Positions 13,849 to 63,941 of a stretch of 64,000 bases of DNA are shown here, piece after piece. Source of the DNA: Arctopsyche grandis (taxonomy: Eukaryota; Arthropoda; Insecta; Trichoptera; Hydropsychidae); contig NC_135356.1 in the NCBI RefSeq assembly GCF_051622035.1, positions 186,001 to 250,000 of the forward strand, written 5' to 3'. The translations under genes were made by a program, and so were the position numbers. The notes below the pieces were generated by a model, which did no database searches, was not told the DNA's origin, and saw only the letters and a program-made list of their open reading frames with translations. The first letter of the stretch is position 1; each line of letters begins with the position of its first letter.

Positions 13849-13858
13849 AGGTAAGCAC
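13849..13858. repeat. Target-site duplication, left of the LINE
   Basis: AGGTAAGCAC ends the left satellite array and is repeated at 20039-20048, where the right array begins. Removing the intervening DNA plus one copy restores a normal satellite unit (GGTGAGGTAAGCACGTTTTG). Confidence 0.85.
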
Positions 13859-20038: not shown

Positions 20039-20048
20039 AGGTAAGCAC
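20039..20048. repeat. Target-site duplication, right of the LINE
   Basis: AGGTAAGCAC, the second copy of the repeat at 13849-13858. It is the first satellite sequence after the LINE tail. Confidence 0.8.
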
Positions 20049-23000
20049 GTTTTGTGGATATTTTGGCAATGTGTAATTCTTTGATTTCGGTGATGGTTAG
20101 GTTCAGTTGGGTTAGGTTTGGTGGGGTAAGAACGTTTTGTGGATATTTTGGAAACGTCGAATTCTTTGATTTCGGTGATGGTTAGGTTAGGTTGGGTTAG
20201 GTATGGTAAGGAAAGCACGTTTTGTGGATATTTTGGCAATGTCCAATTCTTTGATTTCGGTGATGGTTAGGTTCAGTTGGGTTGGGTTTGGTGGGGTAAG
20301 AACGTTTTGTTGATATTTTGGCAATGTCGAATTCTTTGATTTCGGTGATGGTTAGGTTAGGTTGGGTTACATATGGTGAGGAAAGCACGTTTTGTGGATA
20401 TTTTGGCAATGTCGAATTCTTTGACTTCGGTGATGGTTAGGTTAGGTTGGGTTAGGTATGGTGAGGTAAGCACGTTTTGTGGATATTTTGGCAATGTGTA
20501 ATTCTTTGATTTCGGTGATAGTTAGGTTCAGTTGGGTTAGGTTTCGTGGGGTAAGAACGTTTTGTGGATATTTTGGCACTTTCGAATTCTTTGACTTCGG
20601 TGATGGTAAGGTTAGGTTGGGTTAGGTATGGTGAGGTAAGCACGTTTTGTGGATATTTTGGCAATGTGTAATTCTTTGATTTCGGTGATGGTTAGGTTCA
20701 GTTGGGTTAGGTTTCGTGGGGTAAGAACGTTTTGTGGATATTTTGGCACTGTCGAATTCTTTGACTTCGGTGATGGTAAGGTTAGGTTGGGTTAGGTATG
20801 GTGAGGTAAGCACGTTTTGTGGATATTTTGGCAATGTGTAATTCTTTGATTTCGGTGATGGTTAGGTTCAGTTGGGTTAGGGTTTCGTGGGGTAAGAACG
20901 TTTTGTGGATATTTTGGCACTTTCGAATTCTTTGACTTCGGTGATGGTAAGGTTAGGTTGGGTTAGGTATGGTGAGGTAAGCACGTTTTGTGGATATTTT
21001 GGCAATGTGTAATTCTTTGATTTCGGTGATGGTTAGGTTCAGTTGGGTTAGGTTTCGTGGGGTAAGAACGTTTTGTGGATATTTTGGCACTGTCGAATTC
21101 TTTGACTTCGGTGATGGTAAGGTTAGGTTGGGTTAGGTATGGTGAGGTAAGCACGTTTTGTGGATATTTTGGCAATTTCGAATTCTTTGACTTCGGTGAT
21201 GGTTAGGTTAAGTTGGGTTAGGTATGGTGAGGTAAGAACGTTTTGTGGATATTTTGGCAATGTCGAATTCTTCGACTTCGGTGATGGTTAGGTTAGGTTG
21301 GGTTAGGTTTGGTGGGGTAAGAACGTTTTGTGGATATTTTGGCAATGTCGAATTCTTTGACTTGGGTGATGGTTAGGTTAGGTTGGGTTAGGTATGGTGA
21401 GGTAAACACGTTTTGTGGATATTTTGGCAAAGTCCAATTTTTTGATTTCGGTGATTGTTAGGTTCAGTTGGGTTAGGTTTGGTGGGGTAAGAACGTTTTG
21501 TGGATATTTTGGCAATGTCGAATTCTTTGATTTCGGTGATGGTTAGGTTAGGTTGGGTTAGGTATGGTTAGGAAAGCACGTTTTGTGGATATTTTGGCAA
21601 TGTCCAATTCTTTGATTTCGGTGATGGTTAGGTTAGGTTGGGTTACATATGGTGAGGAAAGCACGTTTTGTGGATATTTTGGCAATGTCCCATTCTTTGA
21701 TTTCGGTGATGGTTAGGTTCAGATGGGTTAGGTTTGGTAGGGTAAGAACTTTTTGTGGATATTTTGGCAATGTCGAATTCTTTGACTTGGGTGATGGTTA
21801 GGTTAGGTTGGGTTAGGTATGGTGAGGTAAACACGTTTTGTGGATATTTTGGCAATGTCCAATTCTTTGATTTCGGTGATGGTTAGGTTCAGATGGGTGA
21901 GGTTTGGTGGGGTAAGACCTTTTTTTGGATATTTTGGCAATGTCGAATTCATTGACTTCGGTGATGGTAAGGTTAGGTTGGGTTAGGTATGGTGAGGTAA
22001 GAACGTTTTGTGGATATTTTGGCAATGTCGAATTCTTCGACTTCGGTGATGGTTAGGTTTGGTGGGGTAAGAACGTTTTGTGGATATTTTGGCAATGTCG
22101 AATTCTTTGACTTGGGTGATGGTTAGGTTAGGTTGGGTTAGGTATGGTGAGGTAAGCACGTTTTGTGGATATTTTGGCAATGTGTAATTCTTTGATTTCG
22201 GTGATGGTTAGGTTCAGTTGGGTTAGGTTTCGTGGGGTAAGAACGTTTTGTGGATATTTTGGCACTGTCGAATTCTTTGACTTCGGTCATGGTAAGGTTA
22301 GGTTGGGTTAGGTATGGTGAGGTAAGCACGTTTTGTGGATATTTTGGCAATGTGTAATTCTTTGATTTCGGTGATGGTTAGGTTCAGTTGGGTTAGGTTT
22401 CGTGGGGTAAGAACGTTTTGTGGATATTTTGGCACTTTCAAATTCTTTGACTTCGGTGATGGTAAGGTTAGGTTGGGTTAGGTATGGTGAGGTTAGCACG
22501 TTTTGTGGATATTTTGGCAATGTCGAATTCTTTGACTTCGGTGATGGTTAGGTTAAGTTGGGTTAGGTATGGTGAGGTAAAAACGTTTTGTGGATATTTT
22601 GGCAATGTCGAATTCTTCGACTTCGGTGATGGTTAGGTTAGGTTGGGTTAGGTTTGGTGGGGTAAGAACGTTTTGTGGATATTTTGGCAATGTCGAATTC
22701 TTTGACTTGGGTGATGGTTAGGTTAGGTTGGGTTAGGTATGGTGAGGTAAACACGTTTTGTGGATATTTTGGCAAAGTCCAATTTTTTGATTTCGGTGAT
22801 TGTTAGGTTCAGTTGGGTTAGGTTTGGTGGGGTAAGCACGTTTTGTGGATATTTTGGCAATGTCGAATTCTTTGATTTCGGTGATGGTTAGGTTAGGTTG
22901 GGTTAGGTATGGTTAGGAAAGCACGTTTTGTGGATATTTTGGCAATGTCCAATTCTTTGATTTCGGTGATGGTTAGGTTAGGTTGGGTTACATATGGTGA

Positions 23001-24065
23001 GGAAAGCACGTTTTGTGGATATTTTGGCAATGTCCCATTCTTTGATTTCGGTGATGGTTAGGTTCAGATGGGTTAGGTATGGTGAGGTAAGCACGTTTTG
23101 TGGATATTTTGGCAATGTGTAATTCTTTGATTTCGGTGATGGTTAGGTTCAGTTTGGTTAGGTTTCGTGGGGTAAGAACGTTTTGTGGATATTTTGGCAC
23201 TGTCGAATTCTTTGATTTCGGTGATGGTTAGGTTAGGTTGGGTTAGGTATGGTGAGGTAAGCACGTTTTGTTGGATATTTTGGCAATGTCCAATTCTTTG
23301 ATTTCGGTGATGGTTAGGTTCAGATGGGTGAGGTTTGGTGGGGTAAGACCTTTTTTTGGATATTTTGGCAATGTCGAATTCTTCGACTTCGGTGATGGTT
23401 AGGTTAGGTTGGGTTAGGTTTGGTGGGGTAAGAACGTTTTGTGGATATTTTGGCAATGTCGAATTCTTTGATTTCAGTGATGGTTAGGTTAGGTTGCGTT
23501 AGGTATGGTGAGGTAAGCACATTTTGTGGATATTTTGGCAATGTGTAATTCTTTGATTTCGGTGATGGTTAGGTTCAGTTTGGTTAGGTTTCGTGGGGTA
23601 AGAACGTTTTGTGGATATTTTGGCACTGTCGAATTCTTTGACTTCGGTGATGGTAAGGTTAGGTTGGGTTAGGTATGGTGAGGTAAGCACGTTTTGTGGA
23701 TATTTTGGCAATGTGTAATTCTTTGATTTCGGTGATGGTTAGGTTCAGTTGGGTTAGGTTTCGTGGGGTAAGAACGTTTTGTGGATATTCTGGCACTTTC
23801 GAATTCTTTGACTTCGGTGATGGTAAGGTTAGGTTGGGTTAGGTATGGTGAGGTAAGCACGTTTTGTGGATATTTTGGCAATGTCGAATTCTTTGACTTC
23901 GGTGATGGTTAGGTTCAGTTTGGTTAGGTTTCGTGGGGTAAGAACGTTTTGTGGATATTTTGGCACTGTCGAATTCTTTGATTTCGGTGATGGTTAGGTT
24001 AGGTTGGGTTAGGTATGGTGAGGTAAGCACGTTTTGTGGATATTTTGGCAATATCCAATTCTTTG
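20041..24065. repeat. Satellite array, right part (variant subfamily)
   Basis: The same 85/170-bp satellite resumes in register after the LINE and ends abruptly near 24065 in unrelated DNA. Most half-units differ from the left array: GGGGTAAGAACGTTTTGTGG replaces AGGATAAGAACTTTTTGTGG, CAGTTGGGTTAGG replaces CAGATGGGTGAGG, and GGCACTTTCG or GGCACTGTCG and AATGTGTAATTC variants appear. Near-identical dimers are spaced 170-171 bp (20452, 20622; 22138, 22308). Open frames on the minus strand repeat with the unit and are not treated as genes. Confidence 0.95.
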
Positions 24066-27820: not shown

Positions 27821-29080
27821 TTAGGTGGGCTGAAAAGTTCATAGGCTGACACATAGATGGCGCTACTAGTATTAAATCCATATGATTTTTAGTTAACCCT
27901 AACCTTCAAAAGACACGTGTATAAATTTGACAGCTGTCGTACTATTAGTTTGTGAGTTATAGCATTTTGAGTGAAGCAACTTTTATTATTTTGAAAAAAT
28001 GGATAAAAAGGAATTTCGTGTGTTAATAAAGCATTGCTTTTTGGCGAAAAAAAATACTATTGAAGCCAAGGCTTGGCTTGATAAACATTATTCGGACCTT
28101 GCACCTGGAAAATCAACCGTTGAGAAGTGGTTTGCTAAGTTTAAACGAAGCGAAATGAGAACCGAGGACGATGCACGCAGTGGACGCCCCAAAGAGGCTG
28201 TTACCGACGAAAACATCAAAAAAGTCCACAAAATAATTTTGGATAACCGTAAAGTGAAGTTGATTGAGATATTTGAGACCCTAAAGATATTAAAGGAACG
28301 TGTTGGACATATCGTGAATGAATATTTGGGTATGCAAAAGCTCCGTTCGAAGTGGGTGCCGCGCGAGCTCACAATCGACTAAAAACAACAATGAATTGAT
28401 GATTCTGAGCAGTGTTTGGAGCTGTTTAATCGTAATAAACCCGAATTTTTGCGTTGATATGTGACAATGGATGAAACATGGCTCCATCATTTCACACCGG
28501 AGTCCAATCGACAGTCAGCCGAGTGGACTGCACGTGATGAAGTGACTCCAAAGCGTAGAAAGGCGCAAAAGTCGGCTGGCAAGGTTATGGCATCAGTATT
28601 TTGGGATGCGCATGGTATAATATTCATCGACTATCTTAAAAAGGGAAAAACCATAAACAGCGACTCTTACGTAGCGTTATCGGAGCGTTTGAAGGACGAA
28701 ATCGCGGAAAAACGGCCCCATTTGAAGAAGAAGAAAGTGCTATTTCAACAAGACAATGCACCGTGTCACAAATCAATGAAAACGATGGCAAAATTGCATG
28801 TATTCTCCAGATCTGCCCCCCAGCGACTTTTTCCTGTTCTCAGACCTCAAGAGGATGCTCGCTGGACAGAAATTTTGCGCCGATGAAGAGGTAATCGCCG
28901 AAACTGAAGCCTATTTTGAGGCTAAAGACAAATCGTACTATAAAAATGGTATCGAAAAATTGTATGACCGCTATAATCGTTGTATCGCCCTTGAAGGCAA
29001 CTATATTGAATAATAAAATCAAATTCTAACAAAAAAAAGATTTTTTCTATGCTAGCCTACGAACTTTTCAGCCCAACTGT
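27821..29080 (+). mobile_element. mariner transposon nested in the hAT
   Basis: 1,260 bp flanked by TA. The ends share GGGCTGAAAAGTTC in inverted orientation (27827-27840 and about 29061-29074) and continue as imperfect inverted repeats. It contains a broken mariner transposase gene. It interrupts hAT sequence, so it arrived after the hAT. Confidence 0.88.
27999..29013 (+). pseudogene. mariner transposase (DD34D), broken
   Basis: It starts at ATG 27999, as mariner transposases do just inside the 5' UTR. The N-terminal part is the paired-type helix-turn-helix DNA-binding region (FRVLIKHCFL..., GKSTVEKWFAKFK, SGRPKEAV). The catalytic domain shows MDETWLHHF (first Asp), FQQDNAPCH (second Asp) and YSPDLPPSDFFLFSDLK (third Asp). 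The frame is interrupted by stops at 28380-28382, 28392-28394 and 28455-28457. Near 28795, after KTMAKLH, a short segment that normally precedes YSPDL is missing and the frame shifts; the last part, 28798-29013, reads in another frame to a normal C-terminal stop. The three catalytic Asp are all present, but no functional enzyme can be made. Confidence 0.9.
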
Positions 29081-36240: not shown

Positions 36241-38361
36241 ATGAATAACAAAGAGGCGGCTCCGTCTTACAACTACAACAATCAACAGATGGGTGTTCCG
36301 AGCTATGGCTTCAACGTTCCGCCCCCGTCTGCGCCCCCGCCGAGCTATGCTCAGGCCGTCGGTGGAGTAGCACCTTCCAGTCCATACGTGCCTCCTCAAC
36401 ACAACGGTAAATATCATGCCGACTTGCGATTCTTCGCCGTACACTACTGCGACTAATCACCAATTGTATAAAAATATATATATATATATATATGTAGCTG
36501 GCGATTTTATTCCTGTTGCGTTTTTTGCTATCGTTTGTCATGTCATTATTCGTGTTTGTTATTTGTTATTACTGAATAATTCTCCAGTAAACATGGTATC
36601 CATTTAATTTTTTTTCCATTTAGATTTAGTTTATTCGACACAAACTAATATATGTAGGAAACCATTGAATGCAACGTTTGGCAAAAGATGAAAATAATAA
36701 ATACTTTTTCGCGCACTGCTGTTTGGGAAACGCCAATATACATACATATGTATATACCTACACATGATCGAGAACATTTAGGGCGAAGACACACTGAGTG
36801 GTAAGTGGCACGAAAACATGCGAAAAAACTGCAGCATATATAATACATGGTTCACAGTCCCAAAAATCACCCCCTGGAGTGTTTCCGGTGATATTTTATC
36901 CTTGTATTTATTCTTGCTTGACAGAGGTCGTTAACGGTGAATCCCATATTGGAAGAAATGTAGGAGAAACTTGTCTGATCTCTGTTGCATATGAATATGC
37001 ATACACGTGCGACCTCCCAAACATACCAACTCTGCACGTGCAACTTCACCCGAATGCGGTTTGGGGAACCCCCCACTGTGAAACGGTCACAGCGGTGAGC
37101 AAAAGGACGTGTCGTGCCCTACCACTCAGTGTGTTTTCGCCCTAATAAGTTTCTTTATTGTAAATTAGCCCATTATTGCAAAACTTGTACTTTCTGTCCA
37201 ACTTTTACATTCATAAGTGATATTCAGACAATTGTGAATTTCAAACGGTTCCGCGACAAATTGCTCACAGACCTTTCACTCAACAACGTTACGCGCACGA
37301 CATTTCACTCGCGCGACAACTCGTTCGTGGACATTACTCTCACAGATAAATCGCCCACAGGACAGTATTATCGTATAAAGAATTTATAATTAACACCAAT
37401 TAAAAAAATTATTGTAACTGAACGAAAATTCTTATTAATACGAAGAATTTATATTTATACTTGGTGATAAAATTTAGATTAAACTGGTTTGTATATATTT
37501 TATTTATTTATCTGTGGTAGGATAGTGTGTTAATTCGTCACGATACGTTTAATTGAGTTTTGGAATGATTCTTGCATAAAAAAATAACGTCTTTGTTCGT
37601 TATTTTAATAATTCCGTAAGCGTAATGTCGCGTTATTTATTTGTCGCGTAGTTATTTGTCCCGTGAGCGATTTATCTGTAAGTGTAACGTCGGTCCTTTT
37701 CTTTTTTTGTTTTTGGTTGCACTTTTATATATGTAAGTAATACTGTCAATACATGTAGAATCCCTATGCATATATACATATACAGGGGATGATATATGTA
37801 CGTACAAGTATTTCATTAATGTAAGAGCTGATGCGCAAGTTGTTTTATTGCTATTTTTTTCGTATATGAATGTAGTTTTGCATAATAGAACTGTTAGTAA
37901 ATGTTATAATGTGAAAGCAAACATATGTATGTGTGTGCGACTCAACTCCAACTCTGTTTGGCAACTGATTGTGTAGATGCGGGTCCAGCTATAGTGACGA
38001 CGGTGGTTCCCGTGGGACCCCAACCTACTCACACCATATGCCCGAGCTGTCACGCCGAAATCGACACGAAAACGAAAACCGAACCGGGAATTATCGCTTA
38101 CATATCCGGTATCGTTATCGCTCTAGTGGGGTGAGTATAAAAGTCATAGTTTAATTGTATTCGATTCACTTGGCACTTCACTAGTACCACTGGCAAGCAA
38201 AGCCAAAGCAAGCGCACGCTTCTATTGTAAAATGCATTGTGACCGTATTTTTCAGATGCTGGTTCGGCTGCTGCCTGATTCCGTGCTGCATCGACGAATG
38301 CATGGACATCCATCACTCCTGTCCCAATTGCAAGGCGTACCTCGGCCGCTTCCGTCGATAA
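36241..38361 (+). CDS. LITAF: LITAF-domain membrane protein (SIMPLE/LITAF family)
   Basis: Three coding exons: 36241-36406, 37977-38130 and 38256-38361, all with GT..AG introns and consistent phase, giving 141 residues. The N-terminus is Pro/Tyr-rich with PSAP (29-32) and PPSY (33-36), the TSG101- and WW-binding motifs known in LITAF. The LITAF domain follows: CPSC (77-80), a hydrophobic stretch at about 93-118 (IIAYISGIVIALVG...) and the C-terminal HHSCPNC (C129, C132). The two CxxC halves form one zinc site, and the hydrophobic part dips into the late endosome/lysosome membrane face. Family members act in endosomal sorting. An acceptor six bases before the ATG (AG at 36234-36235) implies an upstream non-coding exon. 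Intron 1 contains a MITE. Length and domain order are normal for the family. Confidence 0.93.
36781..37142. mobile_element. TA-flanked MITE in LITAF intron 1
   Basis: 362 bp. The left end GGGCGAAGACACACTGAGTG continues GTA; the right end is its complement with one mismatch over 23 bases. TA flanks both ends (36779-36780 and 37143-37144). No transposase. The superfamily is not certain. Confidence 0.75.
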
Positions 38362-44914: not shown

Positions 44915-45190
44915 GCATGCAATTCCCGTTCCCGTTCCCATTTCAAGTGACGTGATTATGTACCAACGAACACATTTCCTTGACTACACAATGGCGCTTC
45001 GAACTTTCGCGTCGGTAAAATCTTAATTACGAATATTATTATTAAGAGGTTTATTCCCGTTTTTTTCACAGTAAGCTTCCCGAACATGCATACAACAAAT
45101 CCTGAAAGTTCCATCGTATTCGGTTGATAGGTTTAGGAGCCTATACGAGACAGACAGACAAATAGACATTCAATTTTATATAAATACGCT
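44915..45190 (-). mobile_element. Helitron-like non-autonomous element, copy A (partial)
   Basis: Shares with 46913-47268 a nearly identical stretch (CACATTTCCTTGACTACACA, GGCGCTTCGAACTTTCGCG, TTACGAATATTATTATTAAG, GGAGCCTATACGAGACAGAC). The left part diverges after GGCATGCAATTCCCG and lacks the CTAGT-type end. It lies antisense to the window. Confidence 0.55.
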
Positions 45191-46657: not shown

Positions 46658-46912
46658 TATGTATGGGGAGTGTTGCTGTACGGATCAGAAATGAATATGG
46701 AATAAGGAATATCTTGGGAGAAAGAGGCTCTCTAGGCTCCGGAACATAAGGGATGGGACTCGAACTCGAAAAATTGTTTCGGCTTGTCTAAGATAGGGTA
46801 GAATTCGCACGGGCTATCAATAATGTCTGCCCAAGGTCCGGATACGGATTTAGCACAAAAAGAAGAAGTAAGCTCCCGTGTTTGATTAATCTTATTCCTA
46901 TTTATAAAAGGA

Positions 46913-47268
46913 CTAGCTGAACCCAGCATGCGGTGCAATGCCACAATAACGCATGCAATTCCCATTCCCGTTTCAAATGATGGATGGAGCTCTACTAACG
47001 ACTCTTCAACGCTGTGTCGTCATAAACCAACTGGTAACGTGGTTACCAACGAACACATTTCCTTGACTACACAATGGCGCTTCGAACTTTCGCGTCGGTA
47101 AAATCGTAATTACGAATATTATTATTAAGAGGTTTTATCCGGGTTTTTTTACAGTAAACTTTCCGGACATGCATACAACAAATCCTGAAAGTTCCATCGT
47201 AATCGGTTGATTGGTTTAGGAGCCTATACGAGACAGACAGAAATTCAATTTTATATATATATAGATAT
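46913..47268 (-). mobile_element. Helitron-like non-autonomous element, copy B
   Basis: Read on the minus strand it runs from a TA-rich start, through CTCGTATAGGCTCCTAAACC, to a terminus GCTGGGTTCAGCTAGT at 46913. A CTAG-T end with a short upstream palindrome and no target duplication is Helitron-like. Copy A shares its core; copy C (49581-49928) shares only its ends. Confidence 0.5.
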
Positions 47269-47772: not shown

Positions 47773-50700
47773 ATGTGGTCTCGGGGGCGCAGCACCTCAT
47801 CGTTGCTGCTGCTATCATTGTCTTTCCTTACATTCACCACCGCTCAGGTAACAATCGATCACTAACACCAGGTACGCTAGATTAGCAACACTTTACTACT
47901 CACCAATATCCTTAATAGATAAATACATATATTCAATGTACTACACACAGTACTAAAATTATTCATCAATAATGGGGGGCTTTTCTTCAGATGAATCACA
48001 AATAAAAAGTTTCAGAATTTTATTCGGTTGATGAATATTTTTCAATTTATCAAAAATTCTAAATATTTTTGGGTTCCGATGATTTTGAATTTTTTTACTT
48101 TAAAATCGCATCGAGAATCATTCGTAAAAAAATCAGATTATTTAGATATGTATTATTAAATTAGTATACAATTTGAAAATCTATCATCGAAAATTTTACA
48201 TCTAATTTTATGTATTTGCATGCTTATCAGGACTATAAGAAAAAAATTCGTATGTGTATAAAATTTATAATTTTTATTACATGTCTGATTCGGTTGGCGG
48301 TTTGGGAGATAATTCAAAAACTTAAAAAAAGAAGCCACCTTAAGGGGAGGTACCATTTCCGGACAACTTAAAAATTTACGTCGTGTATGGATAAGAATTT
48401 CAGTAATCGATACTAAGTTTCAGTTTGATAGGACTAACGGTGTTCAAAAAATCTCCATAATAACACACACGCATAGTAATCGATTCTGAGTTTGAATCAG
48501 TCAAAATCTCGAGTTCGAATTTTTGCATGATCACAAACTTCATCTATTCTTTCTACGTATGTATATAAAGTAAAAATTGATAGTAAAAAAAAATTTTTAG
48601 TGAATTTATGAAATTATATACGTTATATATTTATATATCGGTCTCCGTGACGAGCCAGAATGTTAAATTACAGAAAATGCAAATATCGGAAGGCAAAGAT
48701 CGAAAGTCGAAAGATCAAAAAAAAGGGTGCATGGTAAACGGTACATACTCACTTAATTTAAGCGAGCAGGATACAACAGGAACAAGAGGAACAGGCTTTT
48801 CCTCCCGTATTAATGTGCGCGCGCAGAATCTTGTCATTATTAAAAAGGGCGTATTTCCTTCCTTCAAAAAAGGTTCCATGTGCATGTACTTAAGATATTT
48901 ACAATTATAAAACGTTTAAATTCTGGACCTTAATGTAAGAAGTGTCTAGGTCAAAATTTGATAAAACAAAATAAATATTGCAATGTACTAGAAAATTGTT
49001 ATACTTTTAGGGCTAGGAATACCTGCCATTTAATGTAAAGCGAATGAGATATATGTATGTTGGGTACATGGTCTCTATCAATATAACAATGCGACATATT
49101 TTTCATAAGTGATAATATGACATGATTTGTTTCCTATGCATTTAAAACCTGCCCAACAGAATTTAAAAAAATATATGCTTTCGTGAGATGTATGTAATCT
49201 TTAAACCATCCACTGTTCCATGAAAATCTCTCAAATGTGCTCAGATTCTTTTGTATTTCTTATTGCATTAATCTGCATTTCAATACATGTATGTACATGT
49301 GTATTTGCACTCCATCTGCGTATGTACATAGTACATAGATGGAGATTTTCAGGGGCGTCATTTGGTGGGGGTGGGGAGGGCAGCTGCCCCCTTTAGATTT
49401 GAACGGAACTATCCACCTTGTTTAATGTACTATTATGAATTAAAATACTTAAATACTAAACCAATAAACCAAATCTCTTAATAGATTTTTTTAATTATTG
49501 TACTATTCATTTCATTGGTAAAAAAATATAAACAATAAAATTATTTAAATAAATAGTCTCATTCAAAATTCAAATCAAATATATAAAATTGAATGTCTGT
49601 TTGTCTTTCTGTATGTCTCGTATAGGCTCCTAAACCACTCAACCGATTACGATGCAACTTTTAGGATTTGTTGTATGCATGTCCGGAAAGCTTACATTGA
49701 AAAAAAAATCGCCCAAAAGCCGGAACGGAAACGGGAAATACGGGAATGAGTGGCATTGCAACGCAATAATTTCAAATGTTTTCGCGTCGCGACCTGCGTT
49801 ATTAGGCGTAAAATAAACAAACAATTGAATAATTTCAAATGTGTTCGCCGCCTGCATTTTTCCGACAAATGGGAACGGGAATTGCATGCGTTATTGTGGC
49901 ATTGCAATGCATGCTGGGTTCAGCTAGTTTTTTATATAATACACCCTCCCCCCCCCCCCTGGGAAAAGCTGAAATGACGCCCCTGGAAGTTTTCCTTAAT
50001 TTAATTGCAATAGTTTTAATCCAATAGAATATACATATATGTATAGTAGTAATTAAAGTATGAGCATTCTAAGTAAATTTGGAAAAGCTTGAAGAATTGA
50101 ATGCGAATTTGGGAAATGCGCGTGATATCAATATTGTTGAATTTCTTCGTCAATGTGACCTTATCAAGGCTTGGAATGGAAATTTTCATGAACGGGAAAG
50201 TCTTTTTTTTTATATTATCTCCGAAACAGACTGATTTTTTTTTACATGTAATAGAAATTATAAATTTTATACCTAATTATTATTACCTCAACCGGAAGTA
50301 CATAGTACTTTTACTCTAGACTCGATCGAGGCTTTTTATGTTTTTGTCGAAAACCTTTCCGCGTATTGAACTGCGATATCATATCTAGAAGTTTAACCTT
50401 AATACAGCGGTTTCCAAACTGGGAGGCGCGCGCTATTGCCAGGGGAGGCGCCAAAACTTTTTAATAAAAAAATAATTTTCATACCATAATATCTACAAAT
50501 AAATAAAACTTCATATCGTAGCTTAACAGTAAAAATTCAATGCATGAATGTTTATTTTTATTTTTCTTTAATTTTTATATACACATTTAATTAGCAACCC
50601 TTCAAGAAGAAAACCAACATGAAGAGGCACATTTGTGGACGAACGATAATTTTATTGTTAAACTTGCCTATTTGGTTGAAATTTTTGGAAAATTGAGCGG

Positions 50701-53700
50701 TTTAAATAAATCAATGCAGGGATCACAAATACATCCACTTGTTCAAAAACACAAAGTAAAAGCTTTCATTAAAAAGTTGAAGTTATGGAAATCAAATTTA
50801 TTTCACTTTCCAAAGATTTCTGGGCCACAGCCAATATTAAAGAAGGTAAAAATCGTTTTATTGACCACTTGGATGGTTTAGTGCTACATTTTTCCAATTA
50901 TTTCAAAGACCTTGATTTCTCAAAGTTTTTGTGGATACAGAATCCATTTAACTACAATAAAGAAGACAAACTCGAGCTGACAACCATCGAAAAAGAAAAA
51001 TTGATAGAATTATTATGCGATAGCTCACTAAAACAAAAGTTTCAAAATGAAACCATAATAAAATTTTGGATGAATCTTAGTGGAGAGTATGAATCTTTGT
51101 ATTGCAAAGCAATGCAAGTGCTTCTACCGTTTGTAACGTCTTATTTAAGCGAAACGGGCTTTTCGGCACTAGCTGCAATGAAAACCAAATATCGAGCCAG
51201 GTTAATAGTCGAAAAGGAGTTACGAGTGGCACTCTCCATATTGCCCCCAAGATTTGATAAACTTTGTGCCAATAAACAACAACATCCTTCACATTAAATT
51301 TTGATGTGTTAGATGTAGTTTAATTAGTAATTTAATATAAAAATAAATATATGTACACGTGTTCGTATAAGTTTATGTTATAGCAAAACCTTTTTATTAT
51401 TCTGTCTATTGTAGTGTTCAGAATTTTTTTTTAAATAAAGGCTTATTATATAAAACCTGTCTATATTAATATATCTATTAAAAATAAAAGGTAGGGAGGC
51501 GCGGAAAAAAAAATTTTTTTAGGGAGGCGTAGTAACATAAAGTTTGGAAACCGCTGCCTTAATACCAAGTTATACATATTATATATAAAATTTGGTTACA
51601 ACCTGTCAATTGGAAGTGGTAGTTTACAATTGCTCGATTTTTTTCGATCCCTTAAGCATGTGTGCTCTTCACAAGAAAATTCGTGATGAAAATAAAAAAA
51701 ATGATTAAATTTAATAAACAGGAAGTGAGAAGGAGCGCTACGTTTTTGGATTTCACGAAAGGGAGATTTACAAATATACATATAATACATATGTACCTAC
51801 TTGTATTTACGACATTAAATATACGTATATTCACTAATTGAGATATATGTACATATAATACATTTTAAAAAGAGAATACCAGTCAGCTACATACATATGT
51901 ATGTACATATGTAGTAGTTCGGAAAAATAAAAGAAAATATACAAAAATCGATTACATTCAATTAAATTTAAATATAACTACAGTAGTATTTTCATTGTAA
52001 ATTGTTTCAATTGAAAAAAGCAAAAAAGTTCACTATAAATACAAACTAATGCTGCTTTATGTATTGTTTCCCAATTTTATTTATATTATTAATTTCAGTG
52101 TAGGTCTTAAAAATCATTGTCTTTGATATTCTGGTAACAATAATTCATATTATATTGTTATTCATATCAACAGATATTCTGGAGTTTCAGATATTTTTAA
52201 AAACAAAATGCATAGACGGTAAATTTTTAAATTTAGGTCGCAAGTTATTGACAACGAACTATTCTTTCACTTATGTTTATATGTAAAACCAAATTTGTCA
52301 ACATAGTAATTATTTTCAACAGGAAAAATGGAAATCCAAAATCCCAGGAGATTTAGAGGTTGCCAAAGTCACGTTTCCAGTTTTACTTCCAAATTCAGGC
52401 GATGACGTGGAAAACTTTGAGACTTACTTTGACTTAGAAAAGGTAAAAAAAAAAAAAAACAATTTTAATCTCACAAATGGTTAGAATCGTCATTTATGAA
52501 AATAACTAGATGGCAGATGACGTTTACGCATGAATTTTTCTCTAAATTTATAACATTCTGTTTTGGTTATATTTTATCTAATAATGCCCATATGTGATAA
52601 ACAATCATAAACATATTTTCGATTTGAACTCTGAACTCTTACAAATTTAGCATTGAATTAGAATTCATTTTAAATTCACGCATATTTAGTGCAACCCACG
52701 CTTGATTTCGTTCATACATACATACGTATGTACATATAGCATTGATAACATTTCTCTGTATCTAAAATTAGATCTGGCTCCTACAGATGAACCAAATCTT
52801 GGACTATATTTGAAACTAAATTGCATTACAAAGTCAACTTATCTGAAATTGTTTTCACCTGCCTCATCCAATCCCTTCCAGGCCACCATACCATACCATT
52901 TCCCTGTGAAATTTCATTTCTATGTCGAAAGTTATAAAATTTTTAAAATACAAATACATATATGCATGGATTTCTAACAACTTTTAATTTGCAGAAAGTG
53001 ATAGCTCACAGACACATCCCTAATCGAATGTGCTATTTGGTACATGACACATCGGACAATCGACCGTCTTTACTTTATCCAGTTTCCAATCGACTTTCCA
53101 AAGTTCAGGTAACAAATAGCCCAATAAGCGAAATTTAAAATATTATTGTATATTTTTGAATGTGTAAAACATAATACGTATATATAAGGCGATTATCACA
53201 TTTACATAATATCGATATGTTTGTATCAAAAAGTTGACAATGTTGCGCTTTAGCCACTTTATTTTCATTATACAATTGATTATGATTTCGTGAATGCATA
53301 ACAAAGCGATAAAAATTGCAAGCGTCACTCAATAATTGTGCAAATATTTAATCAATTGCATAAAAAAATATGTACCACTGTGCAGATTAAACTAACCCTT
53401 TTCAAAGAATGAATTGTTTATGTCGAAATCATCGGTGAAATGAGTTGAAAGATCTTGTACTATGTAACGATACACTCACTCATTTCTACATATATAAATT
53501 ATAATTCGTAAGTAGGTTACATCAATAGCTGTTTCAATTGTTAAAATTTGAAATTTGTCGCGTTATTACACTGATAAGGGAAGACGTAAGTCATTGACTC
53601 AAAACGAAGACGATGTCTTAACCCCAGATAACCGACACGAGGTCATTTTTTTCAAGCTGACCCAAATCCCAAAAATTTTACACAACACTAAATGTGTTAC

Positions 53701-56700
53701 GGCGAACGTGGAAATGGATCGAAAGCACAAAAATGTGCATTGTCTTTGTGTTTGCAGGTGTGGCGTCTGGCCGGGTCCGTCGTGCAAGACTTTTGCAAGA
53801 ACTTCCGGACGGTGCTCGTCACCGTTAAGAGGTTGGATGTGAGGGTCAGGAGGCGTAGGAATGCCGGAAATGGTTATGGATATCAGCCAGGTGTTAGGGG
53901 ACGTTACAGAGGACAGACTCAGTCCCAGTATTTGAACTTTGGCTCGAATGGTTCGACTCCCGGCAAGGCAGAGGCTGAATCCACACAAGATGGCTCCAGA
54001 GCAGCAGTTAGTGAGTTGAACTTTTAACAATTTGGTTCATCAAACATTCAATAGCTACACATCCAACTACATACATATTCCAAACATTTACTTTCTTGTT
54101 ACGTGAACCTCTTTGCCACGGTCAAAAAGTTCTTCAAATAATTAGGAAAAGTAGACCACACCCTTGTCTTTCAGATTACAGTAGAAAATAAAAAAAGGCA
54201 TTTCTATAAGAATTACTTTCAGACAGTTTCAAAAATCAAATGAATGTAAATAATTATTTTAATTCTAGGTGGGACGAGTGGAATGGGCCAGGCTCAGAGC
54301 CAATCATTCGGCGCCAGTTGTGATGACTGTTACAACACAGGCAGGACTCAAAATCAAGCTTTAGGCATTCAAGGAGGTCAATATGCCCAAAATGGAGGCC
54401 CTTATGGTTATGATCCACGAGATCCCAATGCGGGAAGAGATCTCTATCCTGGTACAGCTGGGAGTAATGGAAAACTCAAACCAGATTCTCTCACCGATCA
54501 AAAAGGTCGAGTTCCAGGCGGACAGCAGACTTTTTATCCAGGTGGAACATATCCACAAGGTCAATATCCAGGACAAGGAAGTTCTCAAGTTCCCGACGGG
54601 TATCAACCGACGACGTATCCTGGTGGTCTTGGTCAGCCTAGTGGCGGTCACGATTCCTCAGGTTACCCTAATGTCAAAGGAGTTTATCAACAGACACCCA
54701 GTCAAGGATGGCAAACTGGACAAAATGGTCAAGGAAACACGCAAACTGGCCAATATCAACCACCACTAACACACACTGGACAAGGTCAGTTGCAACCGGG
54801 ACAGGGACAATTGCAACCGGGGCAGGGTCAATTACATCCTGGACAAGGGCAGTTGCAACCTGGACAAGTACAATTGCAACCAGGGCAACAGCGACCAGGA
54901 CAAGGACAATTTCAACCTGGACAGGGCCAATTACAACCTGGTCAAGGCCAGTTGCAACCTGGACAAGACCAATTGCAAACTGGACAAGGGCAGTTGCAAC
55001 CTGGACAAGGTCAATTGCGACCTGGACAAGGACAATTACAACCAGGGCAACAGCGACCAGGACAAGGACAATTTCTGCCTGGACAAGGCCAATTACAACC
55101 TGGACAAGGGCAATTGCAACCTGGACAAGGTCAATTGCAACCTGGACAAGGGCAGTTGCAACCTGGACAAATACAATTGCAACCAGGGCAACAGCGACCA
55201 GGACAAGAACAATTTCAACCTGGACAAGGCCAATTACAACCCGGACAAGGGCAGTTGCAACCTGGACAAGGTCAATTGCAACCTGGACAAGGAGAATTGC
55301 AACCAGGACAAGGACAATTGCAACCAGGGCAACAGCGACTAGGACAAGGACAATTTCTGCCTGGACAAGATCAATTACAACCCGGACAAGGGCAGTTGCA
55401 ACCTGGACAAGGTCAATTGCTACCTGGACAAGGACAATTGCAACCAGGGCAACAGCGACCAGGACAAGGACAATTTTTGCCTGGACAAGGCCAATTGCAA
55501 CCTGGACAGGGTCAATTGGTACCTGGACAAGGACAATTGCAACCAGGAAAAGGACAATTTCAGCCTGGACAAGGTCAATTGCAACCTGGACAAGGACAAT
55601 TGCAACCTGGACAAGGACAATTGCAACCAGAGCAACAGCGACTAGGACAAGGACAATTTCTGCCTGGACAAGATCAATTACAACCAGGACAAGGTCAGTT
55701 GCAACCTGGACAAGGTCAATTGCTACCTGGACAAGGACAATTGCAACCAGGGCAACAGCGACCAGGACAAGGACAATTTTTGCCTGGACAAGGCCAATTA
55801 CAACCTGGACAAGGGCAGTTGCAACCTGGACAAGGCCAATTGCAACCTGGACAAGGGCAGTTGCAACCTGGAAAAGGTCAATTGCAACCAGGGCAACAGC
55901 GACCAGGACAAGGACAATTTCAAACTGGACAAGGCCAATTACAACCTGGACAAGGGCAATTGCAACCTGGACAAGGTCAATTTCAGCCTGGACAAAGCCA
56001 ATTGCAACCTGGGCAACAGCGACCAGGACAAGGTCAAGTGCAACCTGGACAAGGTCAATTGCAACCAGGTCAAGGACAATTTCAGCCTGGACACAGCCAG
56101 TTGCAACCTGGGCAAGGGCAGTTACAACCCGGACAAGGGCAGCTGCTTCCCGGAGAAGTGCATTTACAACCCGGACAGGGACAGTTACAGCCTGGACAAG
56201 GGTACCTTCAACCTGGACAAAATCAATTGCAGCCTGGTTCAGGATACCTACAGCCTGGACAAGGACAGCTATATCCCGGAAAAGGACAGTTTCAACCCGG
56301 TCAAGGTAATTTGCAACCTGGACATGGACAATTAGTCCCGGGACAGGGACAATTGCAGCCGGGGCAGGGTCAATTACAACCCGGACAAGGACAATTGCAA
56401 CCTGGTCAAGGTCATTTGCAACCTGGGCATGGACATTTACAACCAGGACAAGGGCAATTGCAACCAGTACAAGGGCAATTGCAACCAGGACAAGGGCAAT
56501 TGCAACCAGGATATGGACAACTACAACCAGGACAAGGACAGTTGCAACCTGGACAAGGACAGTTGCAACCTGGGCAAGGGCAACAGCAACCAGGACAAGG
56601 ACAATTTCAGCCTGGACAAGGCCAATTGCAACCTGGACAAGGACAGTTGCAACCTGGACAAGGACAATTTCAGCCTGGACAAGATCAACTGCTACCTGGA

Positions 56701-59435
56701 CAAGGCCAATCGCAACCTGGACAAGGACAGTTGCAACCTGGGCAAGGGCAACAGCAACCAGGACAAGGACAATTTCAGCCTGGACAAGGCCAATTGCAAC
56801 CTGGACAAGGGCAACAGCAACCAGGACAAGGACAATTTCAGCCTGGACAAGGCCAATTGCAACCTGGACAAGGTCAATTGCAACCAGGGCAAGGGCAGTT
56901 GCAACCTGGACAAGTTCAATTGCTACCAGGGCAAGGGCAGTTGCAACCTGGACAAGGTCAATTGCTACCTGGACAAGGACAATTGCAACCTGGACAAGGA
57001 CAGTTGCAACCTGGACAAGGACAGTTGCAACCTGGACAAGGACAGCTACAACCGGGACAAGGTCAAATTTACCCTGGTCAACAATCTCCAGGCTTATGGT
57101 CAGGACAAACTCAACCTGGAGATTTGTACCCAGGACAGCGTCAACCAACTTCAAAATATCCAGGGCAAACACAATCCGGTCAATGGTACCCAGGCTCTGG
57201 ACAAACTACCGATTTTAGTACAGGACAACAATTAACACCAGGTCAAACATTACAACAACCTGGTTATAATTTACAGCCAAATCAAGTACATTCATCTGGT
57301 CAATCAGCCTATGATCAAAGATACAATTCGGGCCAAATAGCGTATCCAGGGGATCATCTTCCGTCTAGTCCAATCCCACAATCTGGAAGTAGTGTATATC
57401 AGCCCGGACCTCAACTGATACCTGGCAATATCATCGATCCTAAAACAGGGCAAACGTATCCCGGAGGCCAAACCTATGTAAATGGCCAAGAAGGAGGTGG
57501 TCAAGTGTCTCCCGGCGATTCTAGCTATCCACCTGGATTTCAATATGAATCGAGAAGCCCTTCAAGCACACAACCAGGTAAAATAATTTATTGCTATGAA
57601 TTGTAGTCAAATTTAATAAGTATTTTAAATTTGCACAAATATAATTTTTAACATTGACAGGTAGAGACAGTTATGGTGGGTACCCTCAAACTCAAGTTGT
57701 TGGACAAGGTCCACTCCAGACCAGCACCGATACTTATGGAACAGTTTACGGTGGGGACGCCGCCGGAGACGATGAAAACTCTCAAGCTGAAGCAAGCATA
57801 CAACATTTAAAAAATGAAACTCAAGCGAGTGCGTCGTCGATGGGAAAACATGCAGATGGCTTGGCGCAAACTCAGATCAGCGGTACATATTCAGGATCTG
57901 GTTCATTTTCAGCGCAAGCCCAAACATCAGACAGCAAAAAGGGTGCTCAAAGTCAAATCTCAGTTGGAAAAATGGGAGCGATGAGCAGCGCACAAGGAAA
58001 CGCCGGATTCGGACAGTCACAAGCGCAGCTACAATTGGGTATGGAGTCAGGTATAACAAAAGCAGAAGCACAGAGCGGCGGTTGGAATCACGGAACAAAC
58101 ACACAGTTGCAAACAAACGAAAAAGGTGGTATGGCTGACGCTCAAGCGAATGGACCAGGGAGTACATCGTCCCAAGCCCAAATAGGTTTCCAACCATATC
58201 AGGAAAACGGTAACAATGACCAGATGAATGGACCGTTCTACGGAGGCGGGGCGGCGTCCGCTCAGTCGGGAAGACACTCGGGACAGTCGCAGACACAAAT
58301 ACAGGGCAAGTTTAAATACGGAATAAGTTACAACGGAGCAGCCCAAGCCGAATCCGGTTCTAAAGATGGACTGCCGAGGAATAGGACAGCATTTAAAACA
58401 TTCGACATATTCAATAAGAACACACTGAGGTCAGACAGAGAAGCAACTCCATATTCCAGCAATCAAAACGGCTTGAGCAACACGAGCAGCGATACGGATG
58501 TCGAAAGTAGCCCAAACGAAAGCATGAGCGAATCAGAGTCAAAACGCTCAGCTCAAACTTTCAACACCAATAACATCGGCATCGGCGCTAAGCAGGCATA
58601 TACAAATCCACCGGTGAATCCTATGATATCTAGACAGTCGTCGATGAAGAGCGACAACGACGACTTCGAAGACAAGTCCGTCAAAGAAACGCACAACCCA
58701 GAATACGACGAAGAAAACGACGACGACGAGGATTACGAGGGAGAATTTCACTCGGGCGGAGAGCTCGGCCATCAAAAGTTGCAATACATCACCAAACCCA
58801 AGGAAGTCGTCGTACAACAAACGGGAAGAGGACAAAGGCAACACATCTTATTAGGATCGCTCGATAACAGCGGAGCTCACGTCATACAAGACTCGTCGGC
58901 CAGCCAGCAGAAGGCACGCATGGTGTTCCAGCCCGGCGAAGTGATCCCGGGCACACAAGGCTACACGATCCCGATAGGCTTCAGAGGAGTCAGCTCAATA
59001 TCGCACGGAAACGAAACCTACTCGTACGCGAACGAGAACGGCGAATCCCAAGCTCAGACGGTGACGTTGACTCCGGGATCGAAAAACGTCACGTACAGCA
59101 AACCTTCAGCCAAAGTTCAGCCATCTTTGAGGAGCTGGAACTCGAACGGTTACAACCAAAAGATATACGGCGGGAGTCGACCGCTGAACAGATACAATCT
59201 GAGAAGCAGTCCCGACAGTTATGTCACTGTGACCAAATCTGTGACGGGGGCTTTCAACTCGGACAAGGACAATCCCATCGAAGACAAAAAATTCGAACAC
59301 ACCTTCTACACCAAGTCGTCCACGTGCGGATATTTCACGTTTTCGTGCAACGTTGTTTACGGTTCCCAAGGGAGAACTAAGGTTTGCAAACCGACCACTC
59401 AGACTAATGCAGACGGCACGCCAGTTCAATGTTAA
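47773..59435 (+). CDS. Secreted BRICHOS-like protein with glutenin-like heptad repeats
   Basis: Six coding exons: 47773-47847, 52323-52442, 52995-53108, 53758-54010, 54269-57577 and 57661-59435. All junctions are GT..AG and in phase, giving 1,881 residues. Exon 1 is a signal peptide (hydrophobic LLLLSLSFLTF, ending TTAQ). Residues about 26-128 resemble a BRICHOS domain: YFDLEKKVIAH with D62, MCYLV with C78, and C116 in QDFCKNF; compare surfactant protein C (YDYQQLLIAY...CCYI). RVRRRR at 132-137 is a polybasic convertase site. CDDC follows, then about 109 GQGQLQP heptads (residues about 359-1122). Exon 6 gives a Ser/Ala/Gln/Gly-rich region, an acidic patch (EENDDDEDYEG) and a four-Cys tail (STCGYFTFSC...VCKP...VQC). 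I infer an extracellular structural or elastic protein with an attached chaperone domain. The BRICHOS call is by pattern; I do not recognise a named orthologue. Confidence 0.8.
48255..48582 (+). mobile_element. 5'-truncated relative of the LINE 3' end
   Basis: Matches 19740-20035: GGTTTGGGAGATAA, GGGAGGTACCATTTCCGG-like sequence, AGGACTAACGGTGTT, GTAATCGATTCTGAG, AATCAGTCAAAATCTCGAG, GCATGATCACAAA and CTTCATCTATT, ending ATAAAGTAAAAA. About 60 bp after CCGGACAAC is absent from the full-length copy. It lies in intron 1 of the BRICHOS-like gene. Confidence 0.75.
49350..49985. mobile_element. hAT MITE interrupted by Helitron-like copy C
   Basis: Ends CAGGGGCGTCATTT and AAATGACGCCCCTG are perfect inverses. 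Flanking 8-mers GAGATTTT and GAAGTTTT agree at six positions. The interior is broken at about 49581-49928 by a Helitron-like copy. A poly-C tract lies next to the right end. Confidence 0.7.
49581..49928 (+). mobile_element. Helitron-like non-autonomous element, copy C
   Basis: Starts ATATAAAATTGAATGTCTGT and ends GCTGGGTTCAGCTAGT, the same termini as copy B but on the plus strand. The core differs from copies A and B and has its own repeat (AATAATTTCAAATGT, twice). Confidence 0.5.
50405..51556 (+). mobile_element. hAT transposon (SCAND3/ZBED5-type), internally deleted
   Basis: Perfect termini CAGCGGTTTCCAAACT and AGTTTGGAAACCGCTG, with the 8-bp target duplication CCTTAATA at 50397-50404 and 51557-51564. 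It is only 1,152 bp and encodes only the C-terminal part of a transposase. It inserted into an older antisense LINE fragment. Confidence 0.92.
50633..51297 (+). pseudogene. hAT transposase C-terminal fragment, frameshifted
   Basis: 50633-50810 (WTNDNFIVKLAYLVEIFGKL, then LNKSMQG and KVKAFIKKLKLWK) and 50785-51297 (a different frame: FWMNLSGEYESLY, ALLPFVTSYLSETGFSALAA-like, MKTKYRARL, LRVALS) are consecutive parts of one protein of the SCAND3/ZBED5/FAM200 hAT family. The second contains the dimerisation region. A frameshift lies near 50790-50825. The BED finger, the first catalytic acids and the N-terminal half are absent, so it is inactive. Confidence 0.8.
51646..52322. other. Rest of intron 1
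   Basis: AT-rich intron sequence with TACATATGTATGT palindromes (about 51885-51910), ending in the acceptor TTTTCAACAG before exon 2. Confidence 0.5.
54781..57072 (+). repeat. 21-bp coding minisatellite (GQGQLQP heptads)
   Basis: About 109 tandem 21-bp units encode GQGQLQP with variants: GQGQFQP, GQGQLLP, GQGQFLP, GQQRPGQ and GQDQLQP. A block with one GQQRPGQ recurs about every 9-13 units in the first half, giving a second-level period. Because the unit length is a multiple of three, other frames also stay open for long stretches (minus strand 54674-57172; plus strand 54708-56309). Gln residues are mostly CAA, Gly GGA, Pro CCT or CCA. Confidence 0.95.
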
Positions 59436-61811: not shown

Positions 61812-63560
61812 TTATGTTTCATCGTGTAATAGTTCATCCGATTTCTCATCCTTTATTTTATCATGTAGCATTGAGATTTCCAAATTAGCTTGTTCTAACT
61901 GTAAATGCAAAAATTAACATTTTCTTCAATACGCTAATGTAATGTAATTTTAAATATCAAAGCAGTTTATCTGATCGATCATTTGGCTAATTTATATGAA
62001 TAATAATAAAAACAAACGAACCTTCTTGATTAATATTTTCTTATCTGACTTTTCTTTCTCGAGTTGTTTGTTTAAAGTGTAAATTTTAAGTTGGCATATT
62101 TGATCTGCAGTCATAAGCCTTGAAAAAAATTTTAATTATTAAAAATTAAATATATGTATAATAATTAAGTACATAAAATATAAAACGTACAGTTCGGGTA
62201 ATTCTTTGCAATCGGCACCTTCATTGTGTTTGACAAATTCTCCCTTCAAGGTTTGAAGCTCTGAGAATATTTTAGAAATCCTGCAAAAATAAAATATAGT
62301 CGTTGTTGAAAAATTTTGTTATCGTTATTATTTAGAGCTGCCACATACAATCACAAAAAAAAATAACAATTTTCTTTTATTATTCGCGCAAAATGTACAT
62401 TTATATCATTAATTAGGAATGTTTTTAATTTCATTTGTGAATTGGTGGTTCAATATGACGCAACGCAATATTGATATTTGTAATCGCACAATATTTAGAT
62501 AAAAATTACATTAATTTCTTCATAGACGATTTTTTAAATACCGAGCCTGATTATTTCACCTTTTAAAACATACAAAAATATTTTTTTTTAATTGAAAGCG
62601 AAATTTAATTGAGAACATTGAAACAAATCAATAAATAGTCTATAAATAACTTTGGCTGTAAAGTAAATTTTAATAAAATGTTTCGATTTGGAAATGAATT
62701 CCACATTTACACATATGTATATGTAAACGTAATAAATTTTCTTTTTCTATATACTATATTTTTGATCAATTGGTCTGCTCAATCAAAATCAGATATTAAA
62801 AATATATATTGTATAGATTGCGCATTGCAAAACGATTCATAAGAATAAAATGGTAAGAATAGTCACATTTCAGTTAGGACTTCAACATTTTTGCCATCGT
62901 TAATAGTATCGTCCATCATTAATGAATACTTTTCGTCACCCTCGGAGAACAATGGATTTTCTGAAATTAAAATTGCATATTAAAAATAAGTGATATAATT
63001 AAAAAATAGAGACACAATCAAGTATCAGTGAATTTTATCTTTTTGGATAATTTAAACCTAAATACCAATTTTCAAAAGTGATCTATGCAAATTAACGTTC
63101 ATTAATTTAGAGGTGTTTTCAAATAAACACATTTTAGGCATTATATGTAGATGTAAATACATATTATAATCACCTGTTTCTGGTGTGCTAATCGTATTCT
63201 CGACATTTTTTGAATCTCGATCTTTATTATTTCTACAATTTGGACCTGAAAAATCGGTTAACAAAGTACACGATTCAAATAAATCAACAAAAAGTATAAA
63301 CAATACATTAAAAAAAAGTACATACAAGTGTAAGTATTTTGATTAGTGATTTCAGGCGTTTTCAACATGTCTTGTATATGCTCGTTGTTTTCGTCCCCGT
63401 ATTTCAACAGCAACTTGTTGATCTCGCTTTTTAAATACGTATTGTGAGCATCGAATATTTCCAACCGATTGTTTAGAGCAGAACAATCTTGGGTTACGTC
63501 GTTCAATTGCAATTTGTAATTTTTTATTTGTTTTCGGAGTTCTTCATTCTCTTGACGGAG
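61812..63560 (-). CDS. Coiled-coil protein, 3' part of a multi-exon gene
   Basis: Six minus-strand exons in order of translation: 63560-63326, 63245-63174, 62960-62867, 62280-62191, 62118-62022 and 61898-61812, the last ending in TAA. All introns are GT..AG and the phases agree, giving 224 residues with no gap. The first exon is a strong coiled coil (LRQENEELRKQIKNYKLQ, then heptad Leu/Ile pattern). Exons 2 and 3 are polar linkers. Exons 4 to 6 return to helical heptads (KIFSELQTLKGE, QLKIYTLNKQLEKEK, LEQANLEISMLHDK). No catalytic motif. I do not recognise the family. A scaffold or tether role is typical of such proteins but is only a guess here. The gene continues to the right: a further exon probably lies at 63942-64000. 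Confidence 0.72.
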
Positions 63561-63941
63561 CTGCAAAAACAAACGTATGTAAAATAAAATATCTCATCGT
63601 TAGGCTAATATTGACATGGTAAACACTACAAGTATAAAAAAAGTACTTAAAAGAGACTTTTATTATATCGATTAATGTTCAACATTATTTAAAACAAATA
63701 AACAGTCAGTACTAATTAGAGAATAAATCAATGTAAACATTTACAATTTGAAATAAATTAATGCGAAAGTTGTTTGCATTCATTGGCTTATTTTATAATA
63801 CCTAGTTGAAAAAAATCTAAATTCATGTCTCCCTATTTTATTAACAGAATAACAACAAATCAACATTCCAACATCAAGTGTCTGAAATGGCCAAGTTAGT
63901 CTAGTTATATATATATTATAAGTTTAAATACCTTACTCCAT
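63561..63941. other. Intron of the coiled-coil gene
   Basis: AT-rich, with acceptor TTTTTGCAG (minus strand) next to 63560. No additional exon could be recognised in it. Confidence 0.4.

Follow-up and report, generated by a model that had tools for sequence, protein, structure and literature searches.

Among the closest known systems to the gene described here are the BRICHOS precursors, such as proSP-C, Bri2 (ITM2B), the gastrokines, OAF and the polychaete peptides of the arenicin and alvinellacin type. As set out in excerpts of three papers (PMC9714404, PMC10182729, PMC6265681), and in common with what is predicted for our locus, they carry a signal peptide or membrane anchor, a domain with one aspartate and a pair of cysteines, a convertase site, and a mature part that is usually C-terminal, beta-prone and often cystine-linked. 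Their mature parts are aggregation-prone, are protected by the BRICHOS domain until a convertase releases them, and often consist of two disulphide-held beta-strands (PMC9714404, excerpt), and the polychaete precursors yield beta-hairpin peptides (PMC6265681, excerpt). The mature part of Bri2 starts at residue 244 (PMC9714404, excerpt), and that of nicomicin is given as 33 residues long. Worms, insects and vertebrates all have such precursors, which fall into thirteen groups, one of which ('group II') is of unknown function (PMC9627735, excerpt).

A six-exon gene and its predicted protein

There are six exons on the plus strand that, when spliced by hand, form a single frame of 1881 amino acids with one stop codon, at its end. 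They lie in the 64-kb stretch of DNA analysed here (the window):

47773-47847, plus: exon 1, residues 1-25, signal-peptide-like MWSRGRSTSSLLLLSLSFLTFTTAQ, judged by eye; donor CAG/GTAACA
52323-52442, plus: exon 2, residues 26-65, where the BRICHOS-like domain begins; includes Asp62
52995-53108, plus: exon 3, residues 66-103, BRICHOS-like domain; includes Cys78 (in CY)
53758-54010, plus: exon 4, rest of the BRICHOS-like domain, including Cys116, then RVRRRR and the first part of the mature chain
54269-57577, plus: exon 5, residues 188-1290, Gly/Gln-rich linker, heptad repeat, YPGQ-type tail
57661-59435, plus: exon 6, AQAQ-rich region, acidic stretch, C-terminal cysteine segment, stop

All five introns are bounded by GT and AG, and the junction phases (0, 0, 0, 1, 1) are compatible throughout. 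By a simple count against the donor consensus, four of the five donors score 7/9 and that of exon 4 (TTA/GTGAGT) is the weakest with 6/9. The weaker acceptors are those of exons 2 and 6, which are still in the top 20% or so of the AGs between 47 and 60 kb. The six-exon gene that an earlier note on this DNA had spliced by hand holds up at the sequence level, and we judge the gene model very probably real.

We give little weight to the notion that exons 1-4 and exon 5 are separate genes and that their fusion is an artefact of hand splicing. Exon 1 does lie 4.5 kb upstream of exon 2, across an intron that holds a hAT copy, and is placed by one donor and by a sequence that, by eye, resembles a signal peptide; moreover, the donor that leads into exon 5 is the weakest of the five, and the fusion is read from genomic sequence rather than from transcripts. 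However, the phases agree at all junctions, and exon 4 is already written in the Gly/Gln/Tyr and AEAES style that is carried on in exons 5 and 6. This makes the two-gene reading very improbable.

Three overlapping in-phase candidates for missed exons in intron 3 were considered, none of them convincing. An alternative first exon in intron 1, with two possible start codons (MCSDSFVFLIALICISIH or longer) and the donor CAT/GTATGT, is conceivable only as a remote option. Long open frames that cross the repeat in other frames or on the other strand (for example, one of 843 amino acids on the minus strand) result from its 21-base period and were rejected as genes. The third-codon G+C content of exon 5 (0.23-0.28) is below that of exons 2-4 (0.48) and of exon 6 (0.52), as though exon 5 had expanded separately.

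The predicted protein of the six-exon gene has the following layout:

residues 1-25: signal-peptide-like, by eye
residues 26-131: BRICHOS-like domain
residues 132-137 (53842-53859, plus): RVRRRR, furin-type site
residues 138-355: Gly/Gln/Tyr-rich, with CDDC at 205-208
residues 205-208 (54319-54330, plus): CDDC, the sole cysteines of the mature chain N-terminal to the repeat
residues 356-1118 (54772-57060, plus): GQGQLQP heptad repeat, seen as a TRF array (54776-57066, period 21) and in codon-position entropy
residues 1119-1290: YPGQ-rich
residues 1291-1845: AQAQ-rich region and acidic stretch
residues 1846-1881 (59325-59432, plus): C-terminal four-cysteine segment, with a weakly modelled hairpin (1848-1858/1861-1872)

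The architecture proposed in the earlier note, namely a secreted protein with a BRICHOS-like domain, a furin-type site and a giant glutenin-like repeat, is thereby supported. The RVRRRR that it had pointed out is present, ends a proregion of 112 residues and leaves a remainder of 1744 residues. It is also unique, in that the pattern R-x-[KR]-R occurs in the whole protein only there, as two overlapping matches. It follows Cys116 by 21 residues, and the corresponding distance from the second cysteine in the Bri2 fragment is 20. We consider cleavage by a proprotein convertase at this site to be likely. The cysteines of the mature chain (205, 208, 1846, 1853, 1866 and 1881) are found only near its two ends, and the span between 208 and 1846 contains 1637 residues and no cysteine.

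In our judgement the DNA is likely to come from an arthropod, probably an insect. The remainder of the window holds the following elements, and Rfam and tRNA scans of the whole 64 kb found nothing:

1-13855 and 20039-24065: 85-base satellite containing TTAGG-like words, in two large arrays
about 0.7 kb past the first array: start of a non-LTR element with long open frames
14547-15389: zinc-knuckle frame of the non-LTR element
15468-18494: endonuclease-RT frame of the non-LTR element
27975-28886: mariner-type transposase broken by stop codons; its two open stretches share a frame
36241-38361, plus: LITAF-like gene upstream, ends by eye; zf-LITAF-like domain, E 3.6e-24 for a hand-spliced piece
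44961-45186, 46899-47261 and 49579-49941: dispersed repeat around exon 1, in both orientations, 84-91% identical
48475-48576: similar to 19936-20038, which directly precedes the second satellite array
50405-51556: hAT element in intron 1, with inverted 16-base ends CAGCGGTTTCCAAACT, an 8-base target duplication CCTTAATA and a transposase remnant (hAT dimerisation match sub-threshold, E 0.0054)
61812-63593, minus: likely coiled-coil gene; 12 coiled-coil-type families matched weakly, all below cut-offs

The BRICHOS-like domain

There is only one Pfam family reported for the N-terminal domain, and it is BRICHOS (PF04089), below the curated cut-off. The match has an E-value of 0.054 (14.2 bits) for the 113-residue domain and 0.015 (15.9 bits) when this is trimmed to 78 residues; neither reaches the gathering cut-off of 25 bits. 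It spans profile positions 6-39 of 91, or about a third. Neither the 360-residue N-terminus nor exons 2 and 3 by themselves gave a reported BRICHOS match. With search filters that remove most matches above E 0.1, the OAF profile (PF14941, an accession taken from an excerpt of PMC9714404 and assumed to be within the Pfam set searched) matched neither the 113-residue domain nor the 360-residue N-terminus. None of 50 shuffled versions of the trimmed domain matched BRICHOS. Twelve other families were each matched by one shuffle, with a best E-value of 0.027, so the Pfam E-value is only suggestive.

Because the score is sub-threshold, although a threshold is set by curators and is not a biological feature, we label the domain 'BRICHOS-like, probable member' rather than a proven BRICHOS. 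The wording 'BRICHOS-like' in the earlier note can thus be kept, with the profile match below threshold. Of the profile and fold check that it had proposed, the profile half returned one weak match, to BRICHOS only, and the fold half an unusable prediction. BRICHOS domains fold into a beta-sheet with two helices; the single-sequence AlphaFold2 model of our domain has a mean pLDDT of 40.6, which is too poor for use. A Foldseek search with this low-confidence model gave 274 matches at E <= 10 and none at E <= 0.001 among the 50 listed, and there are no sequence relatives of the domain in the PDB at E up to 10.

Local alignment with proSP-C, a test specific to the family, is stronger evidence than the Pfam E-value. 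The score is 64, whereas shuffles average 30.2 (z 6.15) and none of 5000 is as good. For proSP-C and Bri2, which are true relatives, local alignment gives a z of 2.5, with 117 of 5000 shuffles as good. The local match between our domain and Bri2, the latter represented by a typed fragment, is weak (score 52, z 2.1, 190 of 5000 shuffles as good), and so are the global alignments, with z 2.0 in both cases (219 of 5000 shuffles as good for proSP-C, 213 for Bri2). When the window was cut into 931 six-frame pieces, the open frame of exon 3 was the best of them against proSP-C, with 59 (next 54), and adding exon 2 by splicing raised this score to 64. Against Bri2, four of the 931 pieces exceed the domain's 52 and one more equals it.

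Asp62 lies 16 residues before Cys78 and is aligned to D105 of proSP-C, and the same Asp-x15-Cys spacing is present in the Bri2 fragment. The conserved aspartate, which ends strand 2 and is D105 in proSP-C and D148 in Bri2, is found in 97% of single BRICHOS domains (PMC9627735, excerpt). The pattern Asp-x15-Cys with Y, C, F or W as the next residue has four further chance occurrences in the window's frames. Since Asp62 and Cys78 are both inside the scored proSP-C alignment, their spacing is not separate evidence, and for this reason we have set our estimate for a true BRICHOS domain slightly lower than we would otherwise have done.

Cys78 and Cys116 are the sole cysteines of the domain, which matches the two conserved cysteines of BRICHOS (in strand 4 and helix 2) and makes them a candidate disulphide pair. 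Cys116 is outside the scored alignment, in a stretch (109-118) that is helical in the low-confidence model. At 38, the gap between the two cysteines is well below the 59 of the Bri2 fragment and the 68 of proSP-C, which suggests that the middle of the domain has been shortened. The signal peptide or anchor and the convertase site of BRICHOS proteins have counterparts in the hydrophobic run of exon 1 (by eye) and in RVRRRR. Likewise, each of the five features listed for BRICHOS proteins in an excerpt of PMC9714404 has a counterpart here, the hairpin weakly.

Perhaps the N-terminal domain is instead a short, unrelated prodomain with a chance likeness to proSP-C. The sub-threshold profile match would agree with this, as would the ease with which shuffles matched 12 other families at E-values from 0.027 up, the weak Bri2 and global alignments and the unusable fold model. 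This explanation must nevertheless account for a proSP-C score that no shuffle reached, and for a second cysteine and a cleavage site that, although outside the alignment, suit the BRICHOS layout and are positioned as in Bri2. We consider it improbable, and hold that the sequence probably encodes a true, if divergent, member of the BRICHOS family.

The heptad repeat, the C-terminal segment and a possible client

The repeat comprises 763 residues, in agreement with the approximately 764 of the earlier note. There are 104 steps from one PG to the next, 92 of which are exactly seven residues long, and the most frequent unit is PGQGQLQ (49 counted, spaced by sevens). The mean entropy among the 92 exact heptads is 0.28, 0.22 and 1.14 bits at codon positions 1, 2 and 3, where the choice of heptads by their PG fixes four bases at positions 1 and 2; over the remaining five codons it is about 0.39, 0.31 and 1.19 bits. 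Low entropy at the first two codon positions and high entropy at the third show that the repeat is kept as protein, with selection acting at this level and not on the DNA. In place of the GYYPTSPQQ-type nonapeptide and PGQGQQ hexapeptide repeats of a plant prolamin, it has PGQGQLQ as its commonest unit. Its likeness to high-molecular-weight (HMW) glutenin is an analogy only.

The earlier note had suggested that BRICHOS keeps the Gln-rich repeat soluble. The repeat is certainly long and Gln-rich, and BRICHOS also counters amorphous, non-amyloid aggregation (PMC9627735, excerpt). However, with a mean hydropathy of -1.28 and no stretch of nine residues above 0.38 it is hydrophilic, is broken by proline about every seven residues and has an average beta propensity (mean 0.95-0.96, maximum 1.13). 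It is therefore an unlikely client, and there is a stronger candidate at the C-terminus. The nonamer FTFSCNVVY (1849) ranks highest in the mature chain on the hydropathy and beta-propensity scales alike, a rank that it shares with the nonamer starting one residue earlier, and YVTVTKSVT (1811) is nearly equal in beta propensity (1.292 versus 1.294). We thus regard the repeat as the less likely client, with a small probability of being the one that is held soluble until cleavage.

The C-terminal 82 residues were modelled by AlphaFold2 with a mean pLDDT of 46.2. This weak model includes a hairpin (1848-1858/1861-1872, pLDDT about 50-60) that would set Cys1853 opposite Cys1866. BRICHOS precursors have antiparallel strands with nested cysteines, to which the four cysteines of residues 1846-1881 may be compared, the hairpin being seen only in the low-confidence model. 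There is, in our judgement, about an even chance that the four-cysteine hairpin is the main client of the BRICHOS domain.

Searches for relatives of these regions yielded no family. The C-terminal 49 residues gave 102 pattern matches in genome contigs and one match by tblastn, and no true relative. The tblastn match was rejected as chance, as it lies in a bacterial gene cluster and its similarity is centred on TNADGTPVQ; the matched protein, which we take to be YajC, is beside SecD/SecF-like proteins. In viral contigs, the BRICHOS-like domain gave 28 pattern matches and exon 6 gave 3, with no relatives among them. A PDB search with the C-terminus produced one antibody match only (E 0.44), and the Pfam matches of exon 6 are weak and unrelated (NUP210 Ig-like, E 0.13; PBP1_TM, E 0.16).

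Our preferred overall reading, to which we assign roughly equal chances of being right and wrong, is that the gene encodes a secreted precursor whose BRICHOS-like domain chaperones a very large matrix protein within the same molecule. In the endoplasmic reticulum, the BRICHOS domain would bind the beta-prone C-terminal cystine hairpin, which is of the kind typical for BRICHOS clients, and so keep the chain from aggregating or forming disulphide links too early. A proprotein convertase would then cut after residue 137, and the freed chain of 1744 residues might link end to end via its terminal cysteines. The product would be a hydrated, extensible matrix or adhesive, with the repeat in the role that the central domain has in wheat HMW glutenin. 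Because the cysteines lie only near the ends and the plan is glutenin-like, we propose a matrix protein that is elastic or adhesive and linked by disulphides. The end-linked polymer itself is a tentative and somewhat doubtful element, and we infer the linking of chains, the tissue and the mechanics.

Alternatively, the domain may be BRICHOS-like but the mature chain no structural polymer; the protein would then be secreted in soluble form, perhaps for storage or as a haemolymph component, and the repeat would be no more than a passive spacer. In Fbp1 of Bactrocera dorsalis, the glutenin-HMW stretch is 66 residues shorter in a clone than in a GenBank entry (PMC8065459, excerpt), which indicates that such repeats can be changeable passengers. 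The excerpt mentions neither terminal cysteines nor a furin-type site for Fbp1, and the first two codon positions of our heptads are strongly conserved, although a passenger could also stay in frame. We consider the spacer unlikely and prefer the chaperoned matrix protein.

In its boldest form, to which we would give rather low odds, the preferred reading describes a self-chaperoning animal elastomer, wherein BRICHOS is a timed assembly brake, the terminal cystine hairpin is both client and cross-linking node, and a convertase releases the chain. If this were true, BRICHOS would be extended from small peptides to load-bearing materials, and a repetitive chain of 1744 residues would test its chaperoning in the secretion of structural polymers. 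It would also show how nature combines a domain, a cut site, an elastic chain and cystine ends, a design that could serve to make Gln-rich elastic proteins that do not gel too early.

Comparison with known systems

The mature chain of 1744 residues is mostly of low complexity, whereas those of Bri2 and OAF have 23 and 70 residues (PMC9714404, excerpt). The locus also differs from other BRICHOS precursors in its much shorter intradomain gap between cysteines.

The cysteines of HMW glutenin are located mainly in its end regions, and it is a plant seed protein that is not known to carry BRICHOS or a furin site. Like our protein, wheat HMW glutenin has a central Pro/Gly/Gln repeat between short non-repetitive ends, and its disulphides are said to supply an elastic framework (PMC13052691, excerpt). 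The unit is the PGQGQQ hexapeptide in wheat and the PGQGQLQ heptad here, and the likeness implies no common ancestry. A repeat resembling HMW glutenin also occurs in the tephritid fat body protein 1 (Bdfbp1), which is secreted and comes from an insect (PMC8065459, excerpt). However, it is a storage protein with the repeat between hemocyanin N and C domains, and BRICHOS is not mentioned in that excerpt.

No BRICHOS protein of this architecture was seen in the titles and abstract openings of the part of the open-access literature that was covered, and nothing was found there for BRICHOS together with Lepidoptera. An Anopheles gene is labelled BRICHOS in a table (PMC2491644, excerpt), and a paper on silk (PMC5000687) names BRICHOS only within its reference list. 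A similar family may already be catalogued in the supplementary data of PMC9627735, because that paper, in the excerpt available, reports insect BRICHOS precursors and the group II of unknown function. BRICHOS precursors and a glutenin-like stretch in an insect protein are each already known, and what is probably new at this locus is their combination.
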